Below, piece by piece: positions 5,952-23,377 of a stretch of 27,608 nucleotides of DNA. The notes under the pieces are model-generated. The model did no database searches. It was not told the DNA's origin and worked only from the letters and a program-made list of their open reading frames with translations. The translations under genes and the position numbers were made by a program. Origin of the DNA: a virus; IMG/VR virus record IMGVR_UViG_3300034072_000776, positions 1 through 27,608 of that record, one strand, 5' to 3'. Positions within the stretch are counted from its first letter, which is position 1; each line of letters starts with the position of its first letter.

Positions 5952-6107
5952 TTATTGATGTTTTTGTAGGTATTTAATCATTTCCTGTAAATATTCAGTT
6001 GCTTTATCCCAATTTCCATTAAATCTTTCTTCTAATTGATTATAAATTTTTTCTGCTCTTTCATATTCAAGTCCAGTTGATTGAATAAATCCTTCTTTAG
6101 TAATCAT
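5952..6107 (-). CDS. small hypothetical protein (51 aa)
   Basis: The frame runs from ATG at 6107 to TAA at 5952 and encodes MITKEGFIQSTGLEYERAEK followed by a helical, charged stretch (NQLEERFNGNWDKATEYLQE). The start overlaps the end of the homing endonuclease gene by 11 bases. It has no membrane segment and looks like a helical soluble protein. Function unknown. It would be transcribed with the endonuclease. Confidence 0.6.
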   Translation of the reverse strand: MITKEGFIQSTGLEYERAEKIYNQLEERFNGNWDKATEYLQEMIKYLQKHQ

Positions 6108-6711: not shown

Positions 6712-6734
6712 TGTGGTCTGCTCATAGTTATTAT

Positions 6735-6742
6735 TATTTATA
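6735..6742 (-). promoter_or_regulatory. T4-type late promoter for the homing endonuclease
   Basis: On the minus strand the exact T4 late-promoter octamer TATAAATA lies just after the U-tract of the psbA terminator and 24 bases before the endonuclease ATG. Transcription would start near 6728, leaving a leader of about 17 bases. Confidence 0.65.
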
Positions 6743-6765
6743 AAAAAGAGACCTTTGCAGGTCTC
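6742..6765 (-). terminator. intrinsic terminator after psbA
   Basis: On the minus strand a perfect 7-bp stem GAGACCT/AGGTCTC with a 4-base loop is followed by six T residues. It lies about 30 bases after the psbA stop codon and should end psbA transcripts. Confidence 0.85.
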
Positions 6766-6768
6766 CAT

Positions 6769-6797
6769 ATTATACCATATATTTAGTTTTATATCAA
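6769..6797 (-). promoter_or_regulatory. sigma70-type promoter overlapping the psbA stop codon
   Basis: TTGATA (6797-6792), exactly 17 bases, then TATAAT (6774-6769) preceded by TGG (an extended -10). The TGA inside the -35 box is the psbA stop codon. The predicted start, near 6762, falls inside the left arm of the psbA terminator, so transcripts from here would lack a full terminator stem and read into the endonuclease gene. Confidence 0.75.
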
Positions 6798-7873
6798 CCG
6801 ATTGAGGGGGCAGTGAGAGCAACTTCAGTTGTTGAAGCAGTAGCAAGGTCTAAAGGAAAATTATGTGCATTCCTTTCATGCATAACCTCAATACCAAGGT
6901 TTGCTCCATTTACCAAATCTGCCCAAGTTTTAACTACACGACCTTGACTATCTTGAATGGATTGATTGAAATTAAATCCATTGAGATTAAATGCCATAGT
7001 GCTTACTCCAAGGGAAGTAAACCAAATTCCAATAACAGGGAGAGCAGCAAGGAAGAAGTGAAGTGAACGAGAATTATTAAAAGAAGCATATTGGAAAATA
7101 AGACGACCGAAATACCCGTGTGCAGCACAGATATTATAAGTTTCTTCTTCTTGACCAAACTTATACCCATAGTTTTGAGATTCTTGTTCTGTGGTTTCAC
7201 GCACCAGGGAGGATGTCACCAAAGAACCATGCATTGCTCCAGCAAATGCTCCACCAAAAACACCGATTACGCCCATCATATGGAATGGGTGCATCAGGAT
7301 ATTGTGCTCTGCCTGGAACACAAGCATGTAGTTGAACGTACCAGAGATACCCAGAGGCATCGCATCAGAGAAAGAACCTTGACCGAAAGGATAGACCAGG
7401 AATACAGCAGAAGCAGCAGCAACAGGTGCGCTGTAAGCAACACAGATCCAAGGACGCATACCTAGACGGTAAGAGAGTTCCCACTCACGACCCATATAAG
7501 CATAAACACCAATGAGGAAGTGGAAGACAACCAGTTGGAAAGGACCACCGTTGTAAAGCCACTCATCCAGAGAGGCAGCTTCCCAGATTGGGTAAAAGTG
7601 CAGTCCAATTGCGTTGGACGAAGGAACAACAGCACCAGAGATGATGTTGTTTCCATACATTAGAGAACCAGCAACGGGTTCACGAATACCATCAATGTCC
7701 ACTGGGGGAGCACCGATGAATGCAATGATGAAACAAGTTGTCGCAGCAAGCAGACAAGGAATCATCAGAACACCGAACCACCCCACATAAAGGCGGTTAT
7801 CGGTTGAAGTAACCCACTGGCAAAAAGATTCCCAGGGATTAGTAGAATTGCGTTGTGCAATAGAAGCAGTCAT
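6794..7873 (-). CDS. psbA: photosystem II reaction centre protein D1
   Basis: Full-length D1, 359 residues from ATG at 7873 (an upstream in-frame extension is open but not homologous). It carries the redox tyrosine Y161, Mn-cluster ligands D170, H332, E333, H337 and D342, the C-terminal processing site after A344, chlorophyll ligand H198, iron and quinone ligands H190, H215 and H272, and S264 in the QB pocket. Position 130 is Glu, as in high-light D1:2 forms, not Gln. There is no intron. It replaces photodamaged host D1 in the thylakoid during infection. The gene is richer in G and C than its neighbours, in keeping with host origin. It has its own consensus promoter about 200 bases upstream, a structured leader of about 165 bases, a terminator, and an adjacent homing endonuclease gene. 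Confidence 0.99.
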
Positions 7874-8923: not shown

Positions 8924-8952
8924 ATTATATAGGAAATCTAAAGGCGTGTCAA
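8924..8952 (-). promoter_or_regulatory. consensus sigma70-type promoter of the hli operon
   Basis: TTGACA (8952-8947), exactly 17 bases, TATAAT (8929-8924): a perfect match in both boxes. The bases just before the -35 (GGGC) are the same as at the psbA promoter. Confidence 0.9.
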
Positions 8953-8994: not shown

Positions 8995-9786
8995 TTACTG
9001 TGCTGGTTGAGATGGTTGGGATATCCGTCCAAGATAAGGATCATAAGTCATAAAATCGTCAATAGTCATATCATGCCCTCGATGTTGCCAAAATTGAAAA
9101 AGACCATCATGACTTGCTTTATGAAATGCATCAACATGTTCTGGATGAATAGAAGATCCTAATTCAATACGATAAAGAAAAATTGGAATTGAAAATGTAT
9201 TACCAGAATTATAAATCAAATCATCAGCAACTGCTCTGGGTTTCACTCCTTGATCTAACTTATATTTTCCATCACGAATATGAAATTTCATAAGTTTTTC
9301 TGCATGATGGCGAGTGATCATATAAGCAGCAGTGGAAAAGTCATTTACAAATCTTTTATGAAGTTTTACATGCAGGTCCCCAGTGCAAATAATTGCTAAC
9401 TGTATGACATCCCAATCATATGGAACTTTTGATACGAAATCTTGCCATGTAAAATTCCAGAATCTTGCAAGTTGTAGATCTACATCGTCCTCCATAATAA
9501 TTGCATAAGGACTATCAGAAGTCTCCATCCAATGTTTGATTGCTTTTAAATGAGAAGTTGTACAACCAATCTCACCAGAGGTCATATTCTCTGGATACCT
9601 ACCTTTAATAATGTCACTTAGATCATCTTCCCTCCCATCATATGCAGAGATGCGAGTATAGTTTTCAATTTCCCAATACTTAAATTGCTCCTCCATATAT
9701 TGCTTTCTTTCTGGTTGATCATCCAGATTTAAATAATATATTGGAGGAATATTTTTAAGTTTATATACTGATTTATTTTTATCCAT
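8995..9786 (-). CDS. GT25 family glycosyltransferase
   Basis: 263 residues from ATG at 9786, which follows the upstream stop by one base (TAATATG); the longer open frame overlaps that gene and is not needed. Family 25 marks: IYYLNLDDQPERK near the N terminus, the GEIGCTTSHLKAIK block at 71-84, the metal-binding IIMEDDV (EDD at 99-101), and AAYMITRHHAEKL. GT25 enzymes of bacterial lipooligosaccharide synthesis are mostly beta-galactosyltransferases acting at the inner face of the membrane. It is the last gene of the 22.5-9.0 kb operon and follows GT6 and GT11 genes, which would need a terminal beta-galactose. Donor identity is inferred. Confidence 0.88.
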   Translation of the reverse strand: MDKNKSVYKLKNIPPIYYLNLDDQPERKQYMEEQFKYWEIENYTRISAYDGREDDLSDIIKGRYPENMTSGEIGCTTSHLKAIKHWMETSDSPYAIIMEDDVDLQLARFWNFTWQDFVSKVPYDWDVIQLAIICTGDLHVKLHKRFVNDFSTAAYMITRHHAEKLMKFHIRDGKYKLDQGVKPRAVADDLIYNSGNTFSIPIFLYRIELGSSIHPEHVDAFHKASHDGLFQFWQHRGHDMTIDDFMTYDPYLGRISQPSQPAQ

Positions 9787-9787
9787 A

Positions 9788-10504
9788 TTATACTTGATAC
9801 TTAGAATTATCTTTTGCAAGATGAATTATTTTAGGTAAGAACTTACAGTAATCAGAAAAAACTTCTGGATAGGCATATTCTGGTCCTAGAGTATTAATCT
9901 TATCCTTATTTTCAATAAAGTATTTGTTTAGATGACTTTCATCATGCCAAAGTGCAATGACGTTATTTTTAAGATCTTTATTAGTTCTATCACAGAGTTC
10001 ATCAATCATTTCAAAAACTTCTGGGACTTTACCACCCCACAAACATCCCTGATAGTATACCGTAGGAATTTCTTTTTCAGTATCTACATATGCAAGAGAT
10101 AATGGATTAGTTTCAAATGCACCAGGAAGTTTATTATGTGGGGGCATTCCAAGATTATGGCAGGGATGCCAAACACCAAACAAAGGTTTATCTGAGAAAA
10201 AGTCTTCCTCTAAAACCTTATCAATAACGAGAGTATCAGCATCAAGGAAAACCAACCAGTCATTGTTAGCAATTTCTTCTCTGGCTTTGTTAAGAATCTC
10301 AAAGCGAGTAAGCGTGATATATGGCCAGTCAAGGTGTTCTTGTGGATATACTTTAACATCTTCTGGGAAATCTCCTTCTCCATCAGTAAATACTAAAAAA
10401 GTCTTCTCCGTATTTGGAAGAAAATTCTCATGAATCTTTTCATAATACTGTGGAAAAAAGTTTAGGTATTTAGATGTTCCAATAAATGCAATTGCGACTT
10501 TCAT
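9788..10504 (-). CDS. GT6 family glycosyltransferase (ABO/alpha-1,3-Gal type)
   Basis: 238 residues from ATG at 10504 (TAATG overlap with the fucosyltransferase gene). Family 6 marks are unmistakable: WPYITLTRFEIL at 60-71, FLDADTLV with DXD at 88-90, YYQGCLWGG at 150-158, WHDESHLNKYF at 186-196 with catalytic E189, and LGPEYAYPE at 206-214. Vertebrate members (ABO transferases, alpha-1,3-galactosyltransferase) add Gal or GalNAc alpha-1,3 to galactose. The ABO enzymes and the Bacteroides enzyme require an alpha-1,2-fucosylated galactose. As I recall, bacterial members mostly have NXN and are metal-independent, while a P-SSM2 cyanophage member keeps DXD as here. The gene just upstream is a GT11 fucosyltransferase, which would make that acceptor. 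Confidence 0.92.
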   Translation of the reverse strand: MKVAIAFIGTSKYLNFFPQYYEKIHENFLPNTEKTFLVFTDGEGDFPEDVKVYPQEHLDWPYITLTRFEILNKAREEIANNDWLVFLDADTLVIDKVLEEDFFSDKPLFGVWHPCHNLGMPPHNKLPGAFETNPLSLAYVDTEKEIPTVYYQGCLWGGKVPEVFEMIDELCDRTNKDLKNNVIALWHDESHLNKYFIENKDKINTLGPEYAYPEVFSDYCKFLPKIIHLAKDNSKYQV

Positions 10505-11295
10505 TAAATTATCACCCAATTTTCAGGAATTAAATCTTTAGTATCTAAATGCTCATTGTTTGAACCTTTAAACCAACCAGAAGGAGCAACAACCTTTTCA
10601 CTATTCGATAACCATGCACCCCACCAACTAAAAGAACTATTAGCAATAATATGTGCAGAACAAAGAGACATAAGACAAAGATCTAAAGCATTATTTTTAG
10701 TTTGAGAAACCATAAACCTATCACCACTAAACAGACTATGATTTAAACACCACTCTGGATCATCAGAGAAAATTATAATTTCTCTATCATCATCAAACAT
10801 ATTCAAAGACTGTTCATAATATTCAATTGGCAAAACCGTATGATTTGGATTAGTAACATAATCCATTCTACGAATGTGAAGAGCTACCGGTTTAGTCCAG
10901 TTAGAAACAACCTGTTTCGCAGGTTCTAGAATATTATCATGAAACTGAAAGTCAGTCAATATCTCTTCACGAATATGTTTAAAGTATTTCTCTGACTGAA
11001 AAAATCCCTGAAGAGTTACCCAGTCTGGACAAGTTTCAAATAGTGTTTTATCAAAAGAAAAAGTTTCTTCAGCAACAATTGGACGATCTATATCAATGTA
11101 TTGATAGTTTAAAGATGTCAAAGTTGACATTCTAAACACGGAATTCAATTGATGATCTGTCCATTCATTTTGATTTTTAGATTTTGGAATACAAATATTA
11201 TATCCACGATTTGTAGCAATGCCTTTTAGAGATGCATATTGAAACATTTGATTTCCAAGTCTGCCAAGTTGTCCTAATGAATTAAATCCAATCAT
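10504..11295 (-). CDS. GT11 family alpha-1,2-fucosyltransferase
   Basis: 263 residues. The N-terminal LGQLGRLGNQMFQYA and the GDP-fucose-binding HIRRMDYV (H140-D145, HxRRxD type) are diagnostic of family 11. The C-terminal IANSSFSWWGAWL is the third conserved block. These enzymes transfer fucose from GDP-fucose to O-2 of a galactose (or sometimes another sugar) on lipopolysaccharide or glycolipid. No GDP-fucose synthesis genes are in the window, so the donor must come from the host or from phage genes elsewhere. The gene overlaps the GT4 gene upstream (ATGA) and the GT6 gene downstream (TAATG). Confidence 0.93.
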   Translation of the reverse strand: MIGFNSLGQLGRLGNQMFQYASLKGIATNRGYNICIPKSKNQNEWTDHQLNSVFRMSTLTSLNYQYIDIDRPIVAEETFSFDKTLFETCPDWVTLQGFFQSEKYFKHIREEILTDFQFHDNILEPAKQVVSNWTKPVALHIRRMDYVTNPNHTVLPIEYYEQSLNMFDDDREIIIFSDDPEWCLNHSLFSGDRFMVSQTKNNALDLCLMSLCSAHIIANSSFSWWGAWLSNSEKVVAPSGWFKGSNNEHLDTKDLIPENWVII

Positions 11296-12239
11296 GATGC
11301 ACCTATAACTTTTTCTACATTTGGAATATAATATTTTTCAATAATGTTTTCCCACTTAAATTGTTTTGAATATTCCAGTATTTCTTTTCTATGAGATACT
11401 GAATATTCCCTATTTCTTTTCAATACAGATTCAATATAAGTGATATCTTCAATCTTATTTTCTGGAATCACATCAATAAAATCTTTTGTTGTATCTAAAT
11501 TTGCAGTTCCATATTGACTTACAACTACCCCTAAACCACATGACAATGCCTCCATACACACTAGTGGATGTGCTTCACCATCACTTAGGAGCGCAAGATT
11601 TCCATAATGTGTAAGATTTTTATATAAAATATCTTTACTCCATTCACCCAAATAATTTTTATTGGGATTGAATCTTTGATCTGCAATGTTACCTGCATAC
11701 CAAAGACTATCAATAGACTGAAAAAGATGTTGTCTCTTACGATAATCAATCTTAGCAAGGTAGATTGATCTATCTGGATACTTTGGGGAATCAGTATGAC
11801 TAAAAGCCTCAGTGTTTACTCCATTAGGAGTTACAAAGAGTTTCTCTGTAGACATACCCAACATAATTTGATATATTTTAGAAATACCTTCAGATAAACA
11901 AAAGATATTTGGTTTAATTTGACCAAAAGCATTGAATACATTCACATATCCATTAAACATTTGTGGTTGTTCCAGATATCCAAAGTGACTTGTGATTGCT
12001 TTTGGATATTGAATATATGGATATATACTAATAAATTCATCATAATGAACATGAACAAAGTCTGGTCTAAATTGATTGACTTCTTCAATAATTTGATTGA
12101 AATCTTTTGTGTTAACAATTTGAACTGTGTGCCCTAAATTCTCTAGAGCATTTTTTGTATCCCAAATAAGAATCTCAACGGCACCCCATCCACTAGGAGG
12201 AATTGGCATAATTCCTGGACCGACTAGCGTAATTTTCAT
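11292..12239 (-). CDS. GT4 family glycosyltransferase (GT-B fold)
   Basis: 315 residues. The N terminus KITLVGPGIMPIPPSGWGAVE is the classic GT4 start, with a glycine loop. FVTPNGVNTEAF opens the second Rossmann domain. LLSDGEAHPLVCMEALSCGL contains the E-x7-E motif that binds the nucleotide-sugar, followed by GVVVSQYGTAN. A retaining enzyme is expected; donor unknown. It is translationally coupled on both sides by ATGA overlaps. Confidence 0.9.
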   Translation of the reverse strand: MKITLVGPGIMPIPPSGWGAVEILIWDTKNALENLGHTVQIVNTKDFNQIIEEVNQFRPDFVHVHYDEFISIYPYIQYPKAITSHFGYLEQPQMFNGYVNVFNAFGQIKPNIFCLSEGISKIYQIMLGMSTEKLFVTPNGVNTEAFSHTDSPKYPDRSIYLAKIDYRKRQHLFQSIDSLWYAGNIADQRFNPNKNYLGEWSKDILYKNLTHYGNLALLSDGEAHPLVCMEALSCGLGVVVSQYGTANLDTTKDFIDVIPENKIEDITYIESVLKRNREYSVSHRKEILEYSKQFKWENIIEKYYIPNVEKVIGAS

Positions 12240-13042
12240 TGCTTACCAAGCTCCGTAAAAAGAGACATATGCTTCCCGTTATATCTCTCATAAATTTCAT
12301 AATCATCTGGATTTTGTTTTACCAAATATCCAAGTGCGATTTGTTCGTTGTTTACAAATCCATTTGAAATCATTTTGTTCAAAAGAATATCTTCAACATC
12401 CTCACCGACTTTCAAAATCTTATCAGCGGTGCCACCAAACATAGATCCCAAAACATAAGAACGATTATCTAAAAGATAATCTTCGGTCAATAGATCTACA
12501 TTTGCCAGATCTTTATAATACTCCATATTCATTTGAATAAGAAACTTATCTCCCATTTCTTCTAGTGCTTCAACAGCGGCAGAACTTGGATACTCCAAAG
12601 ATAAATCATATCCTTCAAAAAATCTTGAAGCACCAGCGTCCAACCAAAAGAAAAACTTACTGTTAAAGGTATTTTCCTCAATCGCCTGCTTTAACCACTT
12701 AAACTTAGAATATTGAATGATAGAATACATTGAGTATTGGCATTCAATTCTTGAAGGATCTAAGATTTTATCTTTATACTCCTCAGAATTAATAATCGCA
12801 TCCAATTGGTCTTTTAGATACTGATAAGGAACCTCATCAACCGACTGAACAATAATATCCGTTGGAATATTTACTCTTCGTTCCTCAACAAAAGAAACAA
12901 TATCTTCTGTGACGAACAAAATCATTGGGCACTTTAATTGGAGTGTAATGTCAAACCACTTCAGATATTCTTCCCAAAATCTTCCATCCATTCTATCTCT
13001 TCCAATATTAAAGAGAGATGTTACGATTGTTACTTCCTTCAT
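12236..13042 (-). CDS. HtrL/YibB-type glycosyltransferase-like protein
   Basis: 268 residues. It begins with EVTIVTSLFNIGR and has the FFFWLDAGASRF motif typical of the HtrL/YibB family, whose enterobacterial members lie at the end of the LPS core gene cluster. The LDAG stretch is the likely equivalent of a GT-A DXD site, and the GSMFGGT block later in the chain is also typical. Activity in this family is poorly known. It is flanked by glycosyltransferase genes with ATGA overlaps on both sides, which supports a role in glycan assembly. Confidence 0.78.
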   Translation of the reverse strand: MKEVTIVTSLFNIGRDRMDGRFWEEYLKWFDITLQLKCPMILFVTEDIVSFVEERRVNIPTDIIVQSVDEVPYQYLKDQLDAIINSEEYKDKILDPSRIECQYSMYSIIQYSKFKWLKQAIEENTFNSKFFFWLDAGASRFFEGYDLSLEYPSSAAVEALEEMGDKFLIQMNMEYYKDLANVDLLTEDYLLDNRSYVLGSMFGGTADKILKVGEDVEDILLNKMISNGFVNNEQIALGYLVKQNPDDYEIYERYNGKHMSLFTELGKQ

Positions 13043-14001
13043 ACTAAACTCATAATAGATTGAATACGATTTACATATGTGTGATTTTCTTTTACATAAA
13101 GCATTGCTTTCTTTATATATTCATAATCCAAACGCTTATTCATAGCATCACCAAACATTAAAGAGGTGTCTGGAGAATATAAACAATTCCCTTCCAGTTC
13201 CTTAAAAACTTCTTCAGAATTAGTTGTCCCCAAGTGACCCCAACTGATTGATTTGAAAACTCTGCAGGGGACATATCCGTTATTAATATGTTCTGGACCA
13301 CGAATGTCAACACCAAGAATTGATTTTTTAGTTCTAAGAATAACCTCTTCTTCACTTAGAGGATTTGCAAAAGGATCATTATGAATGAATTCTACACCAT
13401 TCTTATGGCATTCTTCAATAAAAGGTTTGAAGGTGCTGTAGTTTTCACAACGTCCATGAGTAGAAATATTACCGCTAAAATAGATTTTATTTTCACGAGG
13501 ATAATAAATATCTTCCAAATTAAACTCTTCAGGAAGATAATTTGTTGCCCAAGTCACATAAAACTTATCATAATCCTCAATCCAATATTGGTGATAGTCA
13601 TTCAAAACTTGGACTCTGCGATTTTTTCTTTCTTGTAAGTAACAACAAGGTCCAACTTCTATGACTTTATCCTTATCTAAGGTATAATCGTAAACGTGGT
13701 CTTTATGCCATAAATGATTATAACGAACATCAATAAACTTCTTAACACCAGCATTAATATACTTTGCCGGATCCGGGCAAACGTGAACAAAATAAGTGCT
13801 GTTTTTATTTAAAGGAATATTTTTATCAGCAAATCCTTCAGTCCAGAAAACACAATCATTCCAATCAAAATCTTCAGGATATTCTCCATCGTGAAACCAA
13901 TAAGTCTCATAACCAAGATGAGTAAATGCCTTATAAAAAGCAGCGTGAATATAAGAGTGGGTGTGGGAATGTAATGGATATCCCCAAATAACGACCTTCA
14001 T
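13039..14001 (-). CDS. GT-B-like glycosyltransferase, putative
   Basis: 320 residues from ATG at 14001, which follows the upstream stop by one base (TGATATG, the same junction as at 1325). The N terminus MKVVIWGYPLHSHTHSYIHA leads into a Rossmann-like half. The second half has NKIYFSGNIS, and late in the chain GPEHINNGYVPCRVFKSISW, which sits where GT-B enzymes bind the nucleotide-sugar, then LGTTNSEEVF. It lacks the classic E-x7-E motif and I cannot name a CAZy family. It lies in the middle of the glycan operon. Confidence 0.6.
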   Translation of the reverse strand: MKVVIWGYPLHSHTHSYIHAAFYKAFTHLGYETYWFHDGEYPEDFDWNDCVFWTEGFADKNIPLNKNSTYFVHVCPDPAKYINAGVKKFIDVRYNHLWHKDHVYDYTLDKDKVIEVGPCCYLQERKNRRVQVLNDYHQYWIEDYDKFYVTWATNYLPEEFNLEDIYYPRENKIYFSGNISTHGRCENYSTFKPFIEECHKNGVEFIHNDPFANPLSEEEVILRTKKSILGVDIRGPEHINNGYVPCRVFKSISWGHLGTTNSEEVFKELEGNCLYSPDTSLMFGDAMNKRLDYEYIKKAMLYVKENHTYVNRIQSIMSLV

Positions 14002-14002
14002 A

Positions 14003-14650
14003 TCAAACTCCAGGATTGTAAATGACAAGAACTACATTATCACCCCTCTCATCACCCAAGGATATGTTTTCACTTCTCCTCAAATCCATAATTTTGTATT
14101 GATATCCCTTTAGAATTTCGTTGATAAGTCCTTTCATATATGGATGATCACAAAGTTCATCACCTTCCAAATCATATTCCCAGTCAATAGGAATGTCTTC
14201 AATGAACATATACCCATTAGTTTTTAATTTGGGCAAATAATATCTTATTGCAGCAATTTGGGATTCATATGTGTGGGGTCCATCATCAATAATCAAATCC
14301 ATATCAGGAAGTTTATTTGATACTTCCTTATCATATGCATTCCCAATATGGAGAGTAACATCTTTAAGAGGATCATCTATCAGAGACTGTGCTATTTTTC
14401 TATGATTTTGATTTTGAAAAATATCCAAACCATAAATTTTTGCTTTAGAAAAATATTCTCTCCAAAGTCTTAAAGAAGAACCTGTCGCAACTCCAATTTC
14501 CAGAAGATTAATTTTATCATCTCTAAACTCAAAGAAGTATTCTTCATAAACATCTTTGATATAGGAATGATAGGTATTTTTATCGCAAGAAATTTCTTGC
14601 GAGTGGTCATCATACTTTTTGTCAACATAAATTTCATAAAGTGTTTTCAT
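14003..14650 (-). CDS. class I SAM-dependent methyltransferase
   Basis: 215 residues. SAM-binding motif I is INLLEIGVATGSSLRLWREY near 47-66, the acidic end of the second strand is IYGLDIF, and LIIDDGPHTYESQ resembles the metal-binding DDG/H region of MycE-like sugar O-methyltransferases and cephalosporin-hydroxylase-like proteins. A sugar O-methyltransferase is plausible given the surrounding glycan genes. An exact 20-bp palindrome lies in the N-terminal coding sequence (14583-14602). Confidence 0.8.
   Translation of the reverse strand: MKTLYEIYVDKKYDDHSQEISCDKNTYHSYIKDVYEEYFFEFRDDKINLLEIGVATGSSLRLWREYFSKAKIYGLDIFQNQNHRKIAQSLIDDPLKDVTLHIGNAYDKEVSNKLPDMDLIIDDGPHTYESQIAAIRYYLPKLKTNGYMFIEDIPIDWEYDLEGDELCDHPYMKGLINEILKGYQYKIMDLRRSENISLGDERGDNVVLVIYNPGV
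14583..14602. repeat. perfect 20-bp palindrome inside the methyltransferase gene
   Basis: TCGCAAGAAA followed directly by its reverse complement TTTCTTGCGA. It is perfect, without a loop, in the codons for SQEISCD about 50 bases after the start codon. Confidence 0.9.
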
Positions 14651-14658
14651 TTTTTTAC

Positions 14659-15291
14659 CTAGGAATTTTTAATAACGTCTATTACAAGTTCACTGCCCTG
14701 CAGCATTTTATCTACCCAAAAAGTAGTTCCACAATACCTTTCTGGTTTATGGATTTCAACATAATTTTCTGGCGGATTGACAATATTATATCCGTAAATA
14801 TTTTTAATTACCCTACCAGTTCTATCACTATCATGACAGGCAATAATAGGTGCATAACCAAAAGCAAAATTAACTATATCTCCCCTATTATGAATTCCTG
14901 GATCAACAAAAATTATATCATATTCATATTCTTTCATGAAAGGAGTGACAATATTTTCCAATACTGAAAGATACTCAGTATCATCTAATGGATACTTATT
15001 ATCAATTGCATTTTGATTAGCATCAATTATTTCTTGTGGTAAACTAATATATTTACATTCCCAGTTATCATAGTTTTTCAGTTTTTCTTTTGTTTTATTT
15101 GTCCACTCTAAGTTGAAATCACTAACAGATAATTCAACAGATTTTACTTTCTTGATATTATCACACCAAAATTCTGTTCCGAGTCCTAGTCCAAATTCAA
15201 GAACAGAATTTAGTTCAATATACTCAAATAATTTTGCAAAATAGGGGACCCAATCTTGTGCTTGCGTCAATTCATATTGTTTCTTTTGCAT
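14659..15291 (-). CDS. class I methyltransferase-like protein
   Basis: 210 residues. SVLEFGLGLGTEFW is a SAM-binding motif I variant (GLGLG), followed by KSVELSVSD and YDIIFVDPGIHNRGD in the position of motif IV, then IIACHDSD. It follows the upstream gene with a two-base gap and precedes another methyltransferase gene. Catalytic residues are not obvious, so a non-methyltransferase Rossmann protein is possible. The context suggests sugar modification. Confidence 0.65.
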   Translation of the reverse strand: MQKKQYELTQAQDWVPYFAKLFEYIELNSVLEFGLGLGTEFWCDNIKKVKSVELSVSDFNLEWTNKTKEKLKNYDNWECKYISLPQEIIDANQNAIDNKYPLDDTEYLSVLENIVTPFMKEYEYDIIFVDPGIHNRGDIVNFAFGYAPIIACHDSDRTGRVIKNIYGYNIVNPPENYVEIHKPERYCGTTFWVDKMLQGSELVIDVIKNS

Positions 15292-15293
15292 AA

Positions 15294-16310
15294 TTAAAAA
15301 CTCCTATAAAACATTTTCCACAAATTCAATGACTTGTTTTTCAAATATTTAGACCCCTCCTCAAAGGATGAATCCATTGCTTCTTTATCAATTGACTTAA
15401 GAATATCTGGTATCTCTTCAAAAGAGTTAAAATAGAATCTACATCCACTTAAATTTGGATCATACCATTCACACCAATCAATCCAGTCTTTTTGCAAAAG
15501 ATTAGCTCCACCAGACCCCCAAATATTAAAAAAGTAATTTGGACGCTTAGAAAGTTCGTAAAAGAAATCTTTAGAAGGAAGCAATACAGGGACTTTGGCG
15601 TGAATCAATTCAAAACATAAAAACTTAGAAAATGCATCGGGCATCGTAATAAATGCCTTATATTTTTTTAGTTGATCAATAAATCTAAATCCACCATTAT
15701 AGACAGATATTCCTTTACCAGTCAGATACTCACCCATCTTAAAAAAGATATTATCATTATGATATATTGGAACATAAACTTCAGCGTCTGGAAGTTCAAA
15801 ACTTTCGCCATACATCTCTTTAAAGTATGCAGTTTCTGGAATGCTATTTTCAATAGAATATAAGTTAATTCCACAAGGAGGAATATGTTCCCTGTCCATT
15901 ATATCAGTTCCCTTTTCTTTACACCAAACTTTTTCAAAGAAACTATAAGGAACTATCTTTATATTTGGATTCTGTTCCGCTCTACTAAAGAGTTCATAGA
16001 ACCTAGTCTGGTCCTCCATCCTATAGTCAAACCTATTACAAACCCAAATAACAAGCTTTGACTCAAACTCGTCTTGGTTTTCTAAAAATATCCGTGATAG
16101 TGGCGCTGTATCAGATGTAACGATATAGTCAAACTCATTCAGTTGGTCTTTATGGTCTTTCCAAAAAGTATCTGCAATCTCTTTAGTAATTTTAAATTGA
16201 CCATCATAAAACTTATGGTTAGTTACTTCAAACCCTAGTTCATTAAGAACGTAGTGCTGATCTCTAAAACAACCAATGTGATGAGATATATGTAAAACTT
16301 CTTTAGTCAT
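15294..16310 (-). CDS. GT-B-like glycosyltransferase, putative
   Basis: 338 residues, opening with EVLHISHHIGCFRDQHYVLN, a two-domain Rossmann-type layout: EFDYIVTSDTAPLSRIF and LVIWVCNRFDYR in the first half, YVPIYHN and KGISVYNGGFRFIDQLKKYK in the second, then FLCFELIHAKVPVLLPSKDF. The late FELIHAKVPVLLPS segment resembles the end of the donor-binding region of GT-B enzymes (E followed by small residues and PVLLPS). No CAZy family assigned. ATGA overlap with the upstream gene. Confidence 0.6.
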   Translation of the reverse strand: MTKEVLHISHHIGCFRDQHYVLNELGFEVTNHKFYDGQFKITKEIADTFWKDHKDQLNEFDYIVTSDTAPLSRIFLENQDEFESKLVIWVCNRFDYRMEDQTRFYELFSRAEQNPNIKIVPYSFFEKVWCKEKGTDIMDREHIPPCGINLYSIENSIPETAYFKEMYGESFELPDAEVYVPIYHNDNIFFKMGEYLTGKGISVYNGGFRFIDQLKKYKAFITMPDAFSKFLCFELIHAKVPVLLPSKDFFYELSKRPNYFFNIWGSGGANLLQKDWIDWCEWYDPNLSGCRFYFNSFEEIPDILKSIDKEAMDSSFEEGSKYLKNKSLNLWKMFYRSF

Positions 16311-17122
16311 AAATTCGCTTCTTTGGATAATGAACTTTTAGTTACTGTTACTATGTCAACAATTTTGTTTATCGGAATATTGTTTATTCTAACATACTTA
16401 TCCAATAATATTTCAGGAATAAAATCTATATTATATGAATAATAAAGTGCCGGAATATAAAGAAAGCAATCTGAATATGTATTCATAATGTCGGAAGAAG
16501 AAAATGCAAACAAATCACACATACTCAATTCACTTCCTTTATGACTACCTCTATTAAAAACATTTAAAACTTTAGTATCAAAACTACTAAGATCTATTCC
16601 TTTATTAAAACAAATATCTGTTCTATTTCTTATTACAACATCATACTTAAATTCATTTTGATATTCATATAACTTTTTAAGTTCATTCGATTTGTGTATA
16701 GAATAATATTGAGACAGAACTTTATATGGCTCACATCCATAATGCCATAGTTTCAATACTTCCTTTTCTTTCAAAAAACTAAAATTATTTTTTGCAGAAG
16801 CAGGCAAAAATAATTTCTTATTCTCACCAAGACTTTCCAACTTTTTCCTATTACGCTCCAAATCTTCTTCATATTCTTCTTTTGTTATTTTAGAGTTTAT
16901 GAAATCATATGGGTTAATTTCAAACGACTTCGGTTTTTCTACAAATAAAAACTTTGGTTTCAAATATTCTTTAGCAAATTTAATCTCAGATGAATACTCA
17001 TCAACATCCCATGTATGAATAAAGTAATCAACCTCATTCTCTTGAACAATACTATTCTGAAAGTTGACAATATTAGATTGAATATCCCTTAGAAATCCAC
17101 TATAACAAACTGCTATTTTCAT
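16307..17122 (-). CDS. putative glycosyltransferase-like protein, copy 2 of a tandem pair
   Basis: 271 residues, paralogous to the gene at 17119-17889: both open MKIA(V/I)CY(S/N)GFLR, share VD(Y/F)F(I/V)HTW and DEY, and have a YDVVIRNRTDICF stretch matching YDMVVCMRSDLLF. The R-T/S-D motif after a hydrophobic strand is where GT-A-like proteins place a DXD variant. This copy carries an insert at about 80-115 with a charged helix (EEYEEDLERNRKKLESLGEN). It may be a sugar transferase of a surface-glycan pathway, but family and donor are unknown. Joined to both neighbours by ATGA. Confidence 0.6.
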   Translation of the reverse strand: MKIAVCYSGFLRDIQSNIVNFQNSIVQENEVDYFIHTWDVDEYSSEIKFAKEYLKPKFLFVEKPKSFEINPYDFINSKITKEEYEEDLERNRKKLESLGENKKLFLPASAKNNFSFLKEKEVLKLWHYGCEPYKVLSQYYSIHKSNELKKLYEYQNEFKYDVVIRNRTDICFNKGIDLSSFDTKVLNVFNRGSHKGSELSMCDLFAFSSSDIMNTYSDCFLYIPALYYSYNIDFIPEILLDKYVRINNIPINKIVDIVTVTKSSLSKEANL

Positions 17123-17889
17123 ATATCACTATATTGCAATGTCTTATGAAGAATATCTACGTCAGGTCTCCTTACAACTTTATGTATTATATCGACCATA
17201 TAGTTCTTTTTAAGATTCACGGACTTTAAATGGTGGTCAAACAAAACTTCTCCAACAAAACAACACTTATCATTGAAATAATAATAAGGTATATGTAAAA
17301 ATTCTTCTACAGATAAAATAATATTTTTTTGGCTTGATATGGTTATCATTTCAGAAAAAAAGTTTTCTATTATAGAATGTGTTGGATTCGTATCTAAATC
17401 CCACCTAGTAGCATTAATTAGATTTAAGTCTAGTGAACTAATATCCAAAACACTATCAAAAAGAAGATCAGATCTCATACAAACTACCATATCATATTCA
17501 ACGTCGTTGGTATGGCAATACTGCTGAAGTAGTTGAGAAGACATAAATCTTGAATAATGAAAACTCAATAACTGATATGGTCTGCAAGTATACCATCCAC
17601 TACCAGATATTTTTCTAAGTTTTGAGTAGTCTCTTAAATCGTTAAAAGTAGAAAATACTATCTGATAGTATGGATTTTTTTGAAAATCTTTAGACTCCTC
17701 TATTAATATTGATTTTGGTTTTACTACATTCTTTACATACTCAATTTGTTTTTTTTGATATTCATCTCCTGTCCATGTATGAACAAAAAAGTCAACATCA
17801 TGCTCATCCAAAGAAAAAAACTTTTTGTGAGACTCAAATGTTTCTGTTATGGATCTTAGGAATCCGTTATAACAAATTGCAATTTTCAT
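17119..17889 (-). CDS. putative glycosyltransferase-like protein, copy 1 of a tandem pair
   Basis: 256 residues, the first of two adjacent paralogues. It opens MKIAICYNGFLRSITETFES, has DVDFFVHTWTGDEY near 30-44, a conserved RPYQLLSFHYS block, YDMVVCMRSDLLFD with an R-S-D motif near 140, and a C-terminal half rich in aromatic residues. The divergence from its partner suggests different donor or acceptor specificities. It starts inside the stop of the purine nucleoside phosphorylase gene (ATGA). The glycosyltransferase assignment rests on motif style and context, not on a recognised CAZy family. Confidence 0.6.
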   Translation of the reverse strand: MKIAICYNGFLRSITETFESHKKFFSLDEHDVDFFVHTWTGDEYQKKQIEYVKNVVKPKSILIEESKDFQKNPYYQIVFSTFNDLRDYSKLRKISGSGWYTCRPYQLLSFHYSRFMSSQLLQQYCHTNDVEYDMVVCMRSDLLFDSVLDISSLDLNLINATRWDLDTNPTHSIIENFFSEMITISSQKNIILSVEEFLHIPYYYFNDKCCFVGEVLFDHHLKSVNLKKNYMVDIIHKVVRRPDVDILHKTLQYSDI

Positions 17890-18572
17890 AGACTGTCCAA
17901 AATAGTTTTAATCATATGGTTGAGACCTTGTTCTCTCTCAATACTACTCATCTGCTCACCACCAATAAGATGATCAGAAACTGTATTAACAGAAAGTGCT
18001 TTCTTAGAAAAGCGATTAGCAATACTGTATAAAACGTGAGTTTCCATATCAACTGCTAACACACCCATTTCCATAAATGGTTTGTGCCAGTTAGAATCTG
18101 GTTGATAAAAATAATCATTGGATACCATTTGCCCAACGTGTGCATCACTATTAACCTTCATATATTTACTAAGAAGGTTGTAATCGCAACAGGGAGAGAG
18201 TTTAAAACCAGGTATCAGATTTTCAGTCATAGCATTATCAGTAGCAGCAGTCATAGCAACAACAACATCTCCAACTTTGAGATTTGGAGAAATACCACCA
18301 CAACTACCAACTCTGATTATATTTTCAACATCATAAAAATTATAAAGTTCGTGGGCATAAATTCCAAGACTTGCTTGCCCCATTCCACTCGCCTGAATAG
18401 ATACTGGTTTACCATTATAAGTTCCAGTATATCCTAGACAATTGCGAACTTTATTAACAATATTATATGTCTCTAAAAAGTTTTCAGCAATCCACTTTGC
18501 TCTCAATGGATCACCAGGCATAAGGACTGTCTTGTGATATTGTCCAGGTTTTGCTTCAATGTGCGGGGTCAT
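17886..18572 (-). CDS. deoD: purine nucleoside phosphorylase, DeoD type
   Basis: 228 residues from ATG at 18572 (TPHIEAK aligns with the E. coli start; TTG at 18578 is the other option). It splits purine nucleosides with phosphate into base and (deoxy)ribose-1-phosphate. Family residues are all present: TPHI, the phosphate-binding LMPGDPLRAK, VNKVRNCLG, SGMGQAS, IIRVGSCGG, VDMET (nucleoside ribose contacts), catalytic Asp in NTVSDHL, and the IER arginine. Length and alignment fit the hexameric trimer-of-dimers class. It overlaps the HAD phosphatase gene by 17 bases, which suggests a nucleotidase-phosphorylase pair for purine salvage. Its place inside a glycan operon is unusual. Confidence 0.93.
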   Translation of the reverse strand: MTPHIEAKPGQYHKTVLMPGDPLRAKWIAENFLETYNIVNKVRNCLGYTGTYNGKPVSIQASGMGQASLGIYAHELYNFYDVENIIRVGSCGGISPNLKVGDVVVAMTAATDNAMTENLIPGFKLSPCCDYNLLSKYMKVNSDAHVGQMVSNDYFYQPDSNWHKPFMEMGVLAVDMETHVLYSIANRFSKKALSVNTVSDHLIGGEQMSSIEREQGLNHMIKTILDSL

Positions 18573-19140
18573 TTGCAATAATTTGATAGATTTCTTTCCA
18601 GTTTTTTACACGCAGACCATTCCATTGTTTGTTATACGGATGATCCATTAATATACTTGTAAGTCCTACTCTTTTACCAGATTCTGCATTACTCACAGAA
18701 TCCTCAATCCAATAATACTTCTTTCCCTTGTATCTGTCAAGAAGATAATCTTCTTTACCTTTAGTAAAATCTAAGGCACAATCAATAAAATCAAATACCT
18801 CACCAAATAAATGAATTAAATTATTTTGTCTCAACTTTTGAGCGTACTTATCCTTATCAAGACAACTAATTACGTCAAATCTCCATCCCAAATTATTCAG
18901 TTTACCAATATATTCTACAGAATCTCTAAATGCAGGAATAAATCCTATACATCCAGACTCGTTAAAAGACTTAACTTGGCGATATGATTCTTCATCAGTT
19001 ATTCCATATCTTAGTGATTGACTATAGTATTGATCAGTATCTGCAATTCTTTGATATCCATGCTCACCCATCCACACATCAAATGCATATGCCCAATCTA
19101 AAAGAACTCCATCACAATCGACGATTATTTTTTTATCCAT
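18556..19140 (-). CDS. HAD-family phosphatase (nucleotidase-like)
   Basis: 194 residues. HAD motif I is IIVDCDGVLLDWAYAF (two catalytic Asp), motif II is near DVISCLDKD, and motif IV is YYWIEDSVSNAESG followed by VGLTSILMDHPYN. The helical cap between motifs I and II (about 15-75) resembles 5'-nucleotidase C (NT5C) and related phage deoxynucleotidases. It overlaps the phosphorylase gene (17 bases) and the nucleotidyltransferase gene (8 bases). It could dephosphorylate nucleotides for the phosphorylase, or a sugar phosphate for the nucleotide-sugar genes. The HAD fold is certain; the substrate is not. Confidence 0.82.
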   Translation of the reverse strand: MDKKIIVDCDGVLLDWAYAFDVWMGEHGYQRIADTDQYYSQSLRYGITDEESYRQVKSFNESGCIGFIPAFRDSVEYIGKLNNLGWRFDVISCLDKDKYAQKLRQNNLIHLFGEVFDFIDCALDFTKGKEDYLLDRYKGKKYYWIEDSVSNAESGKRVGLTSILMDHPYNKQWNGLRVKNWKEIYQIIANDPAH

Positions 19141-19855
19141 GTATAAACTTATTAATTTGGTCCCAGGTACCTAGGTCAACATAATCATCAACTTCAATAG
19201 CCTTTGACTTATATATTGGAGTATTTTTAATTTCGCCAACAAGAAGTCGGTGTTTTAATGTTGACTTTTCCATAAACTCAATACAGTTATCAAAAACTCT
19301 CTTCCTAAAGGCAAATGCAGTCCAGAAAGCATTAAATTTATTCATATCATCCTGAGGCTTATCTTCATACTCTTGAACTAAATTGTCATCATCAATATAC
19401 AAAGATCCTTTAGTTTTTAACATATCACTATCAGTTTCCTTCTTAAAGAAAAAAGTAAATCCAGTTTCATTCAAACTATCACTTACAAGTTTAACAATAT
19501 CTTGAGATGATTTTAATCTTAAAAAAGTGTCGGGGAGAAGAACAAGATTCTTTTCACCAAATAAATGCTTTGCACTTTTGATCGATCCAGTGTACTCCGT
19601 TTCTGTAGGATTAAAAAATGTAAATGAAATATTAAATCTAGACTTGTATCTACTCAAATACTTCAGTATTTCAGTTTTATTTTCATTAAGAGTGATTACA
19701 AACTCAACATCTTTGCGACCATAATTTGAAAATAAATCGAAACTATAGTCAATAAGAGATTTATTCTTTTCAATGGAATGAACTTCTTTTGGATATGGTA
19801 AAGAAAGACGAGTTCCTTCTCCAGCACATGGAAGAATAACAGTAAGATTAGACAT
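19133..19855 (-). CDS. sugar-phosphate nucleotidyltransferase
   Basis: 240 residues from ATG at 19855; an upstream TTG at 19879 would add eight residues overlapping the dehydratase gene. The nucleotide-binding loop VILPCAGEGTRLSLPYPKEV is diagnostic of the NTP-transferase family (RmlA/RfbF). NLVLLPDTF carries the metal-binding Asp, VQEYEDKP resembles the family's EKP motif, and VDDYVDLGTWDQINKF is the typical C-terminal W-D-GT block. The short length fits the glucose-1-phosphate cytidylyltransferase type (RfbF/DdhA) better than RmlA. It follows a dehydratase that uses CDP-sugars, so CTP is the likely nucleotide (inferred). Confidence 0.85.
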   Translation of the reverse strand: MSNLTVILPCAGEGTRLSLPYPKEVHSIEKNKSLIDYSFDLFSNYGRKDVEFVITLNENKTEILKYLSRYKSRFNISFTFFNPTETEYTGSIKSAKHLFGEKNLVLLPDTFLRLKSSQDIVKLVSDSLNETGFTFFFKKETDSDMLKTKGSLYIDDDNLVQEYEDKPQDDMNKFNAFWTAFAFRKRVFDNCIEFMEKSTLKHRLLVGEIKNTPIYKSKAIEVDDYVDLGTWDQINKFIHG

Positions 19856-21149
19856 TTTTTTTAATAATATAATTATCAATAACTTCTTCTATGTATTCTA
19901 TCATAGAATCTGTAATTGTGGGAGAACATCCAACGAAAAAGACATTATCTAAAACCTTCATAGCATTTGGATAATTAAATGCAGATTCAAGGTATCTATA
20001 CGCTGGATGAATTAAAAGATTACCTGCAAAATAATTTCGAGTTTGAATTTTATTTTCTTCCAAAAATTTAACTATATCAGATTTATCACCATCACAAATA
20101 ATAGGAACACCAAACCAACTTGTCTCGGCGTGTGGCAATTCATCTATGCTACGAACTCCAGGAATCTTTTCAAATATTTTTTGAATTCTTAATTTATTAA
20201 GTCTACGAATATAGTGAATTTCATCAAACTTTTTAATCTGAACAGATCCAATTGCTCCGAGCATATCAATTGGTTTTAAATTATATCCAATATTTCCAAA
20301 CACATACTTGTGGTCAACGACTTTATCATATCCAACTAACCAATTATCAAATCTTTTACCACAAGTACCACAACTTAAAAGATTTTGAGAACCTACACAA
20401 TAACAATCTCTACCCCACCAAGCAAAACTACGAGCAATATCTACAACTTCTTTAATATTAGATGATACCATTCCACCTTCAATGGTAGTAATATGATGTG
20501 CAGGATAAAAAGAACAAGAAGCGGCAACAGCGTGATCTGTAAGATATTTTCCCCTCCACTTACTACCAAGACTATCACAATTGTCTGCTATCAAATGAAG
20601 ATTATATTCATCACAAATATTTAAAACCTTATCATAATCATAAGGATTGGCAAGAACGGGAGATGAAAATATTGCTCGTGTTTTTGAAGTAATTTTTTTA
20701 CAAACTTGATCTAAATCCCAATTAAGATCTTTATAATCAATATCTACAAATACTGGTTTTAAATTATTTTGAATGATTGGATTAAGAGTTGTAGGAAACC
20801 CACAGACAGACACGATTATTTCATCACCATCATTCCAACCAAAATATTTTTTAAGTGCAGCAATCATTATAAGATTTGCAGAACTTCCAGAATTAACCAT
20901 TACTGAATGATTAAAATTAAATTTTTTAGAAAATTCTTTTTCAAATTTATTAACTTCTTCTCCAGATGAAAGCCATTTTCCAGTTAAAAAAGTTTTAAGT
21001 GCTGCCTCAATTTCTTGATTGTCCCAATACGGTCCAGAATAAAAGATATTACTTTCACCCTTTACATAATCGTTATTATAGAGATAAGGAAAGAAATTTT
21101 CTTGAGTATCAAATAAATTGTCAATAAAATGTTTTACTTGTTCTTTCAT
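19848..21149 (-). CDS. rfbH: CDP-4-keto-6-deoxyglucose 3-dehydrase (E1, RfbH/DdhC)
   Basis: 433 residues, close to the usual 437. It belongs to the DegT/DnrJ/StrS aminotransferase fold, but in SFYPAHHITTIEGG a histidine takes the place of the PLP lysine, as in the dehydrase E1. The [2Fe-2S] cysteine pattern is present: a Cys in ADNCDS, exactly 57 residues, then CYC, then eight residues, then Cys (E1 has C-X57-C-X1-C-X7-C). The enzyme removes the C3 hydroxyl of CDP-4-keto-6-deoxyglucose on the way to 3,6-dideoxyhexoses. It needs a reductase partner (DdhD/E3) and CDP-glucose 4,6-dehydratase (DdhB), neither of which is seen here. Confidence 0.92.
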   Translation of the reverse strand: MKEQVKHFIDNLFDTQENFFPYLYNNDYVKGESNIFYSGPYWDNQEIEAALKTFLTGKWLSSGEEVNKFEKEFSKKFNFNHSVMVNSGSSANLIMIAALKKYFGWNDGDEIIVSVCGFPTTLNPIIQNNLKPVFVDIDYKDLNWDLDQVCKKITSKTRAIFSSPVLANPYDYDKVLNICDEYNLHLIADNCDSLGSKWRGKYLTDHAVAASCSFYPAHHITTIEGGMVSSNIKEVVDIARSFAWWGRDCYCVGSQNLLSCGTCGKRFDNWLVGYDKVVDHKYVFGNIGYNLKPIDMLGAIGSVQIKKFDEIHYIRRLNKLRIQKIFEKIPGVRSIDELPHAETSWFGVPIICDGDKSDIVKFLEENKIQTRNYFAGNLLIHPAYRYLESAFNYPNAMKVLDNVFFVGCSPTITDSMIEYIEEVIDNYIIKKNV

Positions 21150-21154
21150 TTTTT

Positions 21155-21979
21155 TTAGTTATCATTACATAATTTAGTTAATCCTTGCTCCAGTTTAATA
21201 AAATTAAAATTTTCAAAAGATTTAATTTTATTAATATTAAGAGTACTATTTTTTACTTGAATAAATTTTTGATTTTTTGGAAATGGGACTTCAACCAAAT
21301 TACTTTGACTTTTTATCAATTCTCTTGCATTAATAATAATATCTTTAAATAAAAATGATTCTCCAGATGCAATATTATAAATCTCATTTACATGACTTTT
21401 ATCAATTAAAGTATAAATTACTCTACATATATCTTCAACAAACATATAATCCTTTAAAAATTTACCACCTTCGTAAAGATTAATATCTTGATTTTTTTTA
21501 AGGAGTTCAATCATAAACCCAAGAACATTTTTACCTGGTGATATTGTTTTATCTAAACCGTAAACATTCCCAATTCTGAAAATTCTATACTTAATTCCGA
21601 AAGTTTCGCAAAAGGAGATTAAGAGTTGTTCGGCACATCTTTTAGTAATTGAATAAAATCCAGTTGGATTGCAACAATCAGTTTCTTTAGCATCTATTAT
21701 ATCATTACCATAAACAAAACCTGAACTGATAAAATTAAAAGTTATGTCTTTGTCTTTACAGTTGTTTAAAATATCAACAAATAAACTTAAATTTGTATCA
21801 ATATCAATATGCAAATTTGTAAAAATGCTTTGATTTGTTGTTGTACTTATAAAATACAAGACTTCTTGGGTTTTTGGATATTTACTTCCTCTCGGTATAA
21901 TTACAACTTGGTCAGAAAACAATTTGCAAAATGTTCCTCCAATAAATCCAGTCCCACCAAACACTGATATTTTATTCAT
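21155..21979 (-). CDS. extended SDR nucleotide-sugar reductase/epimerase
   Basis: 274 residues from ATG at 21979 (a TTG extends the frame to 21997). The NAD(P)-binding ISVFGGTGFIGGTF, the ISSGFVYG strand, and the catalytic FYSITKRCAEQLL (Y-x3-K) mark an extended short-chain dehydrogenase. RIGNVYG and KDYMFVEDICR are the usual later blocks. In a cassette with RmlC-like and RfbH-like enzymes it is a good candidate for the C4 reductase that finishes the 3,6-dideoxyhexose, such as CDP-ascarylose (AscF-like) or CDP-paratose/abequose. The exact product cannot be read from the sequence. It overlaps the epimerase gene by 8 bases. Confidence 0.85.
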   Translation of the reverse strand: MNKISVFGGTGFIGGTFCKLFSDQVVIIPRGSKYPKTQEVLYFISTTTNQSIFTNLHIDIDTNLSLFVDILNNCKDKDITFNFISSGFVYGNDIIDAKETDCCNPTGFYSITKRCAEQLLISFCETFGIKYRIFRIGNVYGLDKTISPGKNVLGFMIELLKKNQDINLYEGGKFLKDYMFVEDICRVIYTLIDKSHVNEIYNIASGESFLFKDIIINARELIKSQSNLVEVPFPKNQKFIQVKNSTLNINKIKSFENFNFIKLEQGLTKLCNDN

Positions 21980-22508
21980 ACTTTTCACAATCTTCAAAAG
22001 TAAATCCTACTTCATCTTTATTAGACAAAATTGGATTTGAAACTTTCCAATCAACATTTAAAGTTTTATCATTCCATAACAAAGTTCTTTCATGTTCAAC
22101 ATATTGGTAATCAGTAACCTTATAAAGAACCTCTGCAGTGGAAGACAAAACAGAGAATCCATGAGCAAATCCAGGAGGAACCCATAGTTGATAAAGACCT
22201 GGTTTTAAATGAACACCAATCCATTTTCCAAATGTTTGAGAACTTTGGCGAAGATCCACAATCACATCATAAATTTCTCCAGATAAACATCGAACAATTT
22301 TTCCTTGAGCATGATCGATTTGATAATGCAATCCACGTATTACATTTTTTGTAGATACTGAATGACAATCTTGGACAAATTCATACTGTCCAATAATTTT
22401 TTGAACTTCTTGAAGATTGAAAGACTCTGTAAAAGAACCTCTATGATCTTCATACACTCTCGTTGTAAAAAGATATGCGTCTTTAAGTTCAGTTTCTATT
22501 GCGTTCAT
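21972..22508 (-). CDS. RmlC/AscE-like nucleotide-sugar epimerase
   Basis: Cupin epimerase of the dTDP-4-dehydrorhamnose 3,5-epimerase family: VYEDHRGSFTESF, VIRGLHYQ, QGKIVRCLSGEIYDVIVDLR with the conserved basic and acidic residues, and LWVPPGFAHGF. ATG at 22508 gives 178 residues and the family-like start MNAIETELKDAYLF. The frame is open to an ATG at 22535, and those extra codons overlap a relic reading frame. Because RfbH and not RmlB/RmlD lies beside it, the ascarylose-pathway 5-epimerase role (AscE) is at least as likely as rhamnose synthesis. First intact gene of the 22.5-9.0 kb operon. Confidence 0.9.
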   Translation of the reverse strand: MNAIETELKDAYLFTTRVYEDHRGSFTESFNLQEVQKIIGQYEFVQDCHSVSTKNVIRGLHYQIDHAQGKIVRCLSGEIYDVIVDLRQSSQTFGKWIGVHLKPGLYQLWVPPGFAHGFSVLSSTAEVLYKVTDYQYVEHERTLLWNDKTLNVDWKVSNPILSNKDEVGFTFEDCEKYE

Positions 22509-22596
22509 ACCACTCAATTGCTTTTTGTAATCCATAATCTAGAGAGTTTTTACATCTCTCTTTTGGGTCATTGACTCCACCACTTAGTTTTGAGAA
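22489..22596 (-). pseudogene. possible relic of an NDP-sugar dehydratase/epimerase C terminus
   Basis: Between the membrane-protein gene and the RmlC-like gene the minus strand holds a frame without a start codon. It ends in NSLDYGLQKAIEWYERNRN, which matches the usual end of extended SDR nucleotide-sugar enzymes (SLEEGLxKxIEWYxxN). It runs into the RmlC coding start in another frame and stops at 22489. I read it as a fragment left by a deletion or recombination at the edge of the cassette. The missing DdhB-type dehydratase would be a natural source. Short length makes chance similarity possible. Confidence 0.4.
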
Positions 22597-23348: not shown

Positions 23349-23377
23349 ATTATAAGGGTTTTGAGTGTCTATGTCAA
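23349..23377 (-). promoter_or_regulatory. consensus sigma70-type promoter
   Basis: TTGACA (23377-23372), exactly 17 bases, TATAAT (23354-23349). It drives the genes at 23325 and below, toward the glycan operon. No clear terminator lies between here and that operon, so this may also be its promoter. Confidence 0.88.

Follow-up and report, generated by a model that had tools for sequence, protein, structure and literature searches.

The window analysed here is the entire IMG/VR record IMGVR_UViG_3300034072_000776, 27,608 bases long. It carries psbA and hli-like frames, which identify its source as a cyanophage, and the closest isolate across the window is Synechococcus phage DSL-LC02 (Kyanoviridae, Dishui Lake). 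The features of its glycan cluster are as follows.

23349..23377, minus strand: promoter-like site ahead of the cluster, a perfect match to the sigma-70-type consensus (sequence match only)
13039..22535, minus strand: remaining glycan cluster, with a methyltransferase and unassigned proteins, some of them probably glycosyltransferases
21972-22535, minus strand: RmlC, glycan cluster
21155-21997, minus strand: NAD-epimerase, glycan cluster
19848-21149, minus strand: RfbH-like PLP enzyme, glycan cluster
19133-19879, minus strand: nucleotidyltransferase, glycan cluster
12236..13042, minus strand: HtrL/YibB-family protein in the same gene run (Pfam PF09612, 7.9e-18)
11292..12239, minus strand: GT4-like glycosyltransferase (phrog_33732, 9e-170; weak Pfam GT4 match)
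10504..11295, minus strand: GT11 fucosyltransferase, 263 aa, predicted to act alpha-1,2 on galactose (PF01531; HxRRxD)
9788..10504, minus strand: GT6 glycosyltransferase (PF03414; PDB, AF2 and Foldseek matches to BoGT6a and ABO enzymes)
8995..9786, minus strand: GT25 glycosyltransferase, final gene of the cluster (likely ATG at 9786; PF01755)
8924..8952, minus strand: second perfect sigma-70-type site, just past GT25 (consensus match only)

The last three genes, at 8995-11295, were confirmed as members of the families named in the preliminary description. All scored above their Pfam cut-offs: GT11 at 9.2e-26 (91.2 bits against 23.9), GT6 at 3.2e-22 (79.2 against 25) and GT25 at 8.1e-16 (58.9 against 24). 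The expected motifs are present (HIRRMDYV in GT11, DADTLV and WHDESHLN in GT6, EDD in GT25), and the three proteins matched PHROGs 2835, 3317 and 2644 at ~1e-105 or better. The genes overlap or abut, as had also been described: the GT11 stop codon TAA and the GT6 ATG share one base (TAATG, 10506-10502), and a single base separates the GT6 stop codon TAA from the likely GT25 ATG. With TTG starts, the GT6 and GT25 frames become longer and run into the adjacent genes. Because this set of neighbours is found again in DSL-LC02 and IMG/VR contigs, the arrangement is not due to chance. The HtrL/YibB-family gene is likewise a conserved upstream neighbour (loci L002, L009 and L019-L021), and GT25 closes the cluster ahead of the hli/ferredoxin genes of relatives; the promoter-like site at 8924..8952 probably starts the next, hli-like, unit. 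Scanned by hydropathy, the window and six clusters related to it yielded no polytopic membrane protein and, by the same measure, nothing of the Wzx/Wzy flippase/polymerase type. Since no such membrane protein was detected, glycan assembly is probably cytoplasmic, on host intermediates or a phage protein.

In GT11, the HxRRxD residues H140, R142, R143 and D145 are invariant, and the best PDB matches of the AF2 model (pLDDT 95.6) are GDP-fucose fucosyltransferases (FUT8, POFUT1, NodZ and AtFUT1). Some GT11 enzymes, such as HhFT2, have alpha-1,3 specificity (PMC4202792). GT25 satisfies the CAZy family definition by profile and EDD motif; its nearest PDB match is a “putative glycosyltransferase R655” (E 9e-4), and the family spans specificities other than LgtB-like beta-galactosyl transfer.

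The GT6 protein gave BoGT6a of Bacteroides ovatus and the ABO enzymes as its best PDB sequence matches, and its AF2 model (pLDDT 95.7) showed their GT-A fold, aligning by Foldseek with a TM score of 0.85 to BoGT6a and ~0.8 to human GTA/GTB. The active site is conserved. ABO Trp181, Arg188, Asp211, Asp213 and His233 correspond to W60, R67, D88, D90 and H113, and Trp300-His301-Asp302-Glu303 to W186-H187-D188-E189. Thus the donor-binding positions R67, D88, H187 and D188 are retained together with H113 and E189, the equivalents of the acceptor-site residues His233 and Glu303; the catalytic Glu is invariant across 114 cyanophage GT6 sequences. The DXD motif that marks metal-dependent GT6 enzymes is intact (D88-A-D90), as it is in all cyanophage members. 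Two other acceptor-site residues of human ABO are replaced, Thr245 by Ala129 and Asp326 by Pro213, the latter position being Pro in BoGT6a too.

At positions 266-268, where the tripeptide of ABO enzymes determines the donor (LGG/AGG in the known A type, MGA in the B type), the window GT6 has Gln-Gly-Cys (QGC), with Q152 and C154 in place of Met/Leu266 and Ala/Gly268. This matches neither type, so we class the protein as neither an A nor a B transferase; QGC is shared by 107 distinct phage GT6 proteins and is absent from the tripeptides tested in PMC6351642. In GTB, Met266 and Ala268 block GalNAc, their bulk clashing with the N-acetyl group (PMC4692239). As Gln and Cys are larger than the A-type residues, UDP-Gal would be a better guess than UDP-GalNAc as the donor, and the product would more likely be B-like than A-like. 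An A-type GalNAc transferase making an A-like product is rather unlikely given that predicted clash, even though the closest solved relative, BoGT6a, transfers GalNAc (PMC3961637) and AGG, an A-type tripeptide, is found in the GT6 of P-SSM2-type phages. Between the A- and B-like products first proposed, this uncharacterised tripeptide leans towards Gal without settling the choice.

The distribution of these genes was examined across phages. GT6 was present in 71 deposited phage records, GT11 in 103 and GT25 in 98, and a degenerate scan of IMG/VR yielded 558 stretches encoding GT6; the IMG/VR samples comprise the best 80 matches and are biased towards window-like sequences. The fetched loci gave 118 distinct phage GT6 proteins, including the 107 with QGC. 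GT11 lies within 2.5 kb of 103 of these 107 and is directly adjacent in 84; the remaining four sit on fragments too short for proximity to be judged. Free-standing GT6 genes directly beside GT11 account for 82 cases (GT11 upstream in 78, downstream in 4), a further 14 have GT11 within 2.5 kb upstream but not adjacent, and in seven GT6 is fused to GT4, with GT11 no more than 2.5 kb downstream (adjacent in two). The preliminary description had named a lack of GT11-GT6 adjacency in related genomes as evidence against its proposal; the loci examined show that adjacency, so this check did not refute it. GT11 was the neighbouring gene of GT6 in 54 of 77 phage loci, compared with 12.7 expected from random gene order within the same loci and a maximum of 28 in 20,000 simulations. 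Genetic coupling to a predicted H-forming GT11, a supporting feature of ABO-type enzymes although not a strict definition, is thus evident in both proximity and fusions.

The partner fused to GT6 in the seven distinct phage sequences is a homologue of the GT4-like protein (GT4x). Five of these (L086, L092, L095, L100 and L101) are single GT4-like=GT6 proteins of 557-560 aa with GT11 just downstream.

The pairing extends to bacteria, where GT11 adjoins GT6 in 29 of 80 loci against 11.4 expected from random order. In a gut alphaproteobacterial MAG the two are joined as one 567-residue GT11=GT6 protein, and related genomes of this alphaproteobacterial family carry the fused frame too, either complete or interrupted by a frame break or the end of a contig (L252:870-2570, L420, L421 and L424).

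Adjacency might instead reflect shared regulation or joint horizontal transfer, with GT11 and GT6 acting on different residues or branches within one surface-glycan cluster. Many glycosyltransferases are shuffled in these clusters, other genes intervene between GT11 and GT6 in 14 QGC and 4 AGG loci, and GT11 occurs in 42 of 46 large GT25 clusters irrespective of GT6, including 29 of the 31 without it. We consider this explanation unlikely, given that adjacency is far more frequent than chance ordering would give, both in phages and among unrelated bacteria, and that the two enzymes are naturally fused. Simple co-occurrence was rejected as proof of coupling, GT11 being near-ubiquitous in these clusters. 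Since GT11 is common without GT6, its presence alone says little, and it is adjacency and fusion that carry the argument for consecutive enzymes.

The acceptor was considered from the same data. In the alpha-1,3-galactosyltransferase/iGb3 synthase subfamily, a contact between the HAA-tripeptide His and the Gal 2-OH has been proposed. Gln152 could make a similar contact, in which case the phage GT6 would act on non-fucosylated galactose, like those mammalian enzymes. Two phage GT6 genes, L119 (AGG) and L135 (AAA), lack a nearby GT11 despite ample context, as this would allow. Such an acceptor nevertheless seems very improbable for the QGC enzymes: every one with enough context has GT11 nearby, and the best sequence and fold matches are BoGT6a and the ABO enzymes, which require fucose. 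The AAA protein itself (L135:7151-7888), a cyanophage GT6 in a 20.8 kb locus containing no GT11, is a possible candidate for a fucose-independent enzyme.

The preliminary description had grouped all three genes into a cassette in which GT25 would lay down beta-Gal, GT11 fucosylate it and GT6 cap it. Its GT11-GT6 unit is supported, and GT25 as a dedicated member is not. The three genes do abut in the window, in DSL-LC02 and in several IMG/VR contigs, and GT6 directly precedes GT25 in 15 distinct cases, but the preceding gene is GT11 in 47 and GT4x in 30; GT25 comes immediately after 38 of 61 GT4x genes, making GT4-GT25 the commoner pair, and 31 of the 46 large GT25 clusters have no GT6. The three-enzyme pathway is accordingly quite improbable. 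Rather than a dedicated partner of GT11-GT6, GT25 is an independent gene at the cluster end with a wider distribution, and the GT11-GT6-GT25 order is one arrangement among several. The pair lies between GT4x and GT25 in the window and DSL-LC02, and 5-7 kb upstream of a still-joined GT4x-GT25 in S-CAM9, B23 and S-8S55. Because its placement varies while GT4x and GT25 stay joined, GT11-GT6 behaves as a two-gene module able to sit between them.

A quick maximum-likelihood tree divided the GT6 family into three parts. The first is the cyanophage QGC/DXD clade, whose nearest neighbours are three Omnitrophota, Saprospiraceae and Pacearchaeota sequences. The second is a DXD group with Dependentiae, Chlamydiae and P-SSM2-type phages, and with the human enzyme on a long branch; the third comprises NXN bacteria including BoGT6a. 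In this quick tree the QGC clade is thus distinct from both the BoGT6a and the P-SSM2 lineages. Among the best 80 genome matches to the phage GT6, the highest bacterial identity was ~43% and no Synechococcus or Prochlorococcus appeared, which on this sample makes a recent host origin unlikely. A GT6 search of plasmids matched only Phocaeicola and Prevotella records.

Several known systems resemble the window. In Escherichia coli O86, WbwK (GT11) and WbnI (GT6) catalyse consecutive steps towards the B antigen in the O-polysaccharide (PMC4202792); that setting is a chromosomal O-antigen locus, whereas hydropathy gave no sign of a membrane flippase or polymerase in the phage cluster. BoGT6a (PDB 4AYJ, 4AYL and 4CJ8), the best match in sequence and fold, makes the A antigen on 2′-fucosyllactose (PMC3961637). 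It shares the WHDE, His and Arg positions and the Pro at the Asp326 position with the window GT6, but is a metal-independent NXN enzyme with AGG (GalNAc) and belongs to another clade. Human GTA/GTB have the GT6 fold, DXD and the conserved donor and catalytic residues in common with the window GT6, at ~25% identity and with LGG/MGA in place of QGC; the phage protein lacks their stem and membrane anchor. The cyanophages P-SSM2 and P-SSM5 encode a GT6 (PSSM2_268) that lies downstream of GT11 and upstream of GT25, close to gmd/fcl; it is 37% identical to the window GT6, carries AGG, falls in the separate DXD group with Dependentiae/Chlamydiae and is separated from GT11 by two genes. Synechococcus phages DSL-LC02, S-CAM9, B23, Bellamy and ACG-2014f belong to the window's own GT6 clade, GT11 being either the adjacent gene or a short distance upstream, and their records are annotated only as glycosyltransferase or GT6/GT11 family, with no pathway.

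The GDP-fucose genes gmd and fcl are absent from the 27.6 kb window, leaving the remainder of the phage genome or the host cell to supply GDP-fucose. In DSL-LC02, P-SSM2 and ACG-2014f, gmd scored above the NCBIfam cut-off and fcl was the best family match, slightly below its cut-off. Among the 42 GT6 loci for which 9 kb or more of upstream sequence was available, 16 contain both genes. An epimerase adjoins GT11 in S-CAM9, S9220M01 and Bellamy, annotated in S-CAM9 as UDP-glucose 4-epimerase. We do not claim a UDP-Gal supply role for it, as no NCBIfam model matched at E 1e-30. Outside the main cluster, the window encodes a UDP-galactopyranose mutase homologue (2984-4030, minus strand; GLF, 1.2e-44), which suggests galactofuranose in some phage glycan.

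With moderate confidence, we favour GT11 and GT6 as consecutive enzymes of one phage glycan pathway with a most likely B-like product. GT11 would transfer fucose from GDP-fucose in alpha-1,2 linkage onto a terminal galactose to form an H-type disaccharide, after which the ABO-type GT6 would add a hexose alpha-1,3 to the same galactose, most likely Gal from UDP-Gal, yielding a B-like branched trisaccharide carried on a glycan that the remaining cluster enzymes assemble in the infected cell's cytoplasm. Family membership, predicted fold, active-site conservation, conserved adjacency and natural fusions are established; the acceptor and donor, the order of the two reactions and the carrier, which may be a host envelope glycan or a virion protein, are our inference. 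Counting against this pathway are the replaced ABO residues, the lack of QGC among the tested tripeptides and the missing gmd and fcl in the window. The proposal of an H-type GT11 followed by an ABO-type GT6 gains from adjacency, fusions, the retained active site and, for some relatives, GDP-fucose genes linked to the pair, while the part assigned to GT25 is weakened. As the GT11-GT6 pair is conserved across many cyanophages, a similar branched sugar is probably built by many of them. More tentatively, and on balance doubtfully, an old, virus-dominated DXD/QGC GT6 lineage of marine and freshwater cyanophages may act with GT11 to place a B-antigen-like trisaccharide on the particle or host envelope, altering receptor or predator recognition.

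ABO-like chemistry has been known chiefly from vertebrates and from gut or host-associated bacteria. If the proposed pathway is correct, it is a virus-encoded counterpart of the H-to-B pathway, and viruses keep and spread such chemistry in open water, far from vertebrates. The module offers a simple, testable case of phage-directed glycan remodelling in cyanobacteria, and the QGC clade adds an uncharacterised donor tripeptide to the long study of A/B specificity. The earlier statement that no described phage pathway of this kind was known agrees with our literature searches as regards the coupled pathway: looking in PubMed Central for a cyanophage blood-group pathway turned up only a remark in JBC 2014. 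GT6 itself was already on record, having been noted in two cyanophages (PMC3961637) and annotated in the GenBank entry of P-SSM2, whose LPS genes were suggested to alter the host surface (PMC2984593). The coupled chemistry of E. coli O86 (PMC4202792) and the A-type reaction of B. ovatus (PMC3961637) are also known. To our knowledge and from our searches, the conserved phage GT11-GT6 module, its own GT6 clade, the QGC tripeptide and the natural fusions are new.

Three further genes in the window were recorded, all on the minus strand. A DeoD-type purine nucleoside phosphorylase (17886-18578) lies within the glycan cluster, and an endonuclease-like frame (6097-6846; phrog_681), likely a homing endonuclease, directly follows psbA. 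The frame at 25959-27428 is a phage-encoded cyanobacterial iron-uptake porin (por_somb family, 2.2e-87); among deposited phages, full-length relatives occur only in Synechococcus phage S-SRM01 (72%), with partial matches in S-CREM1 and S-PM2.
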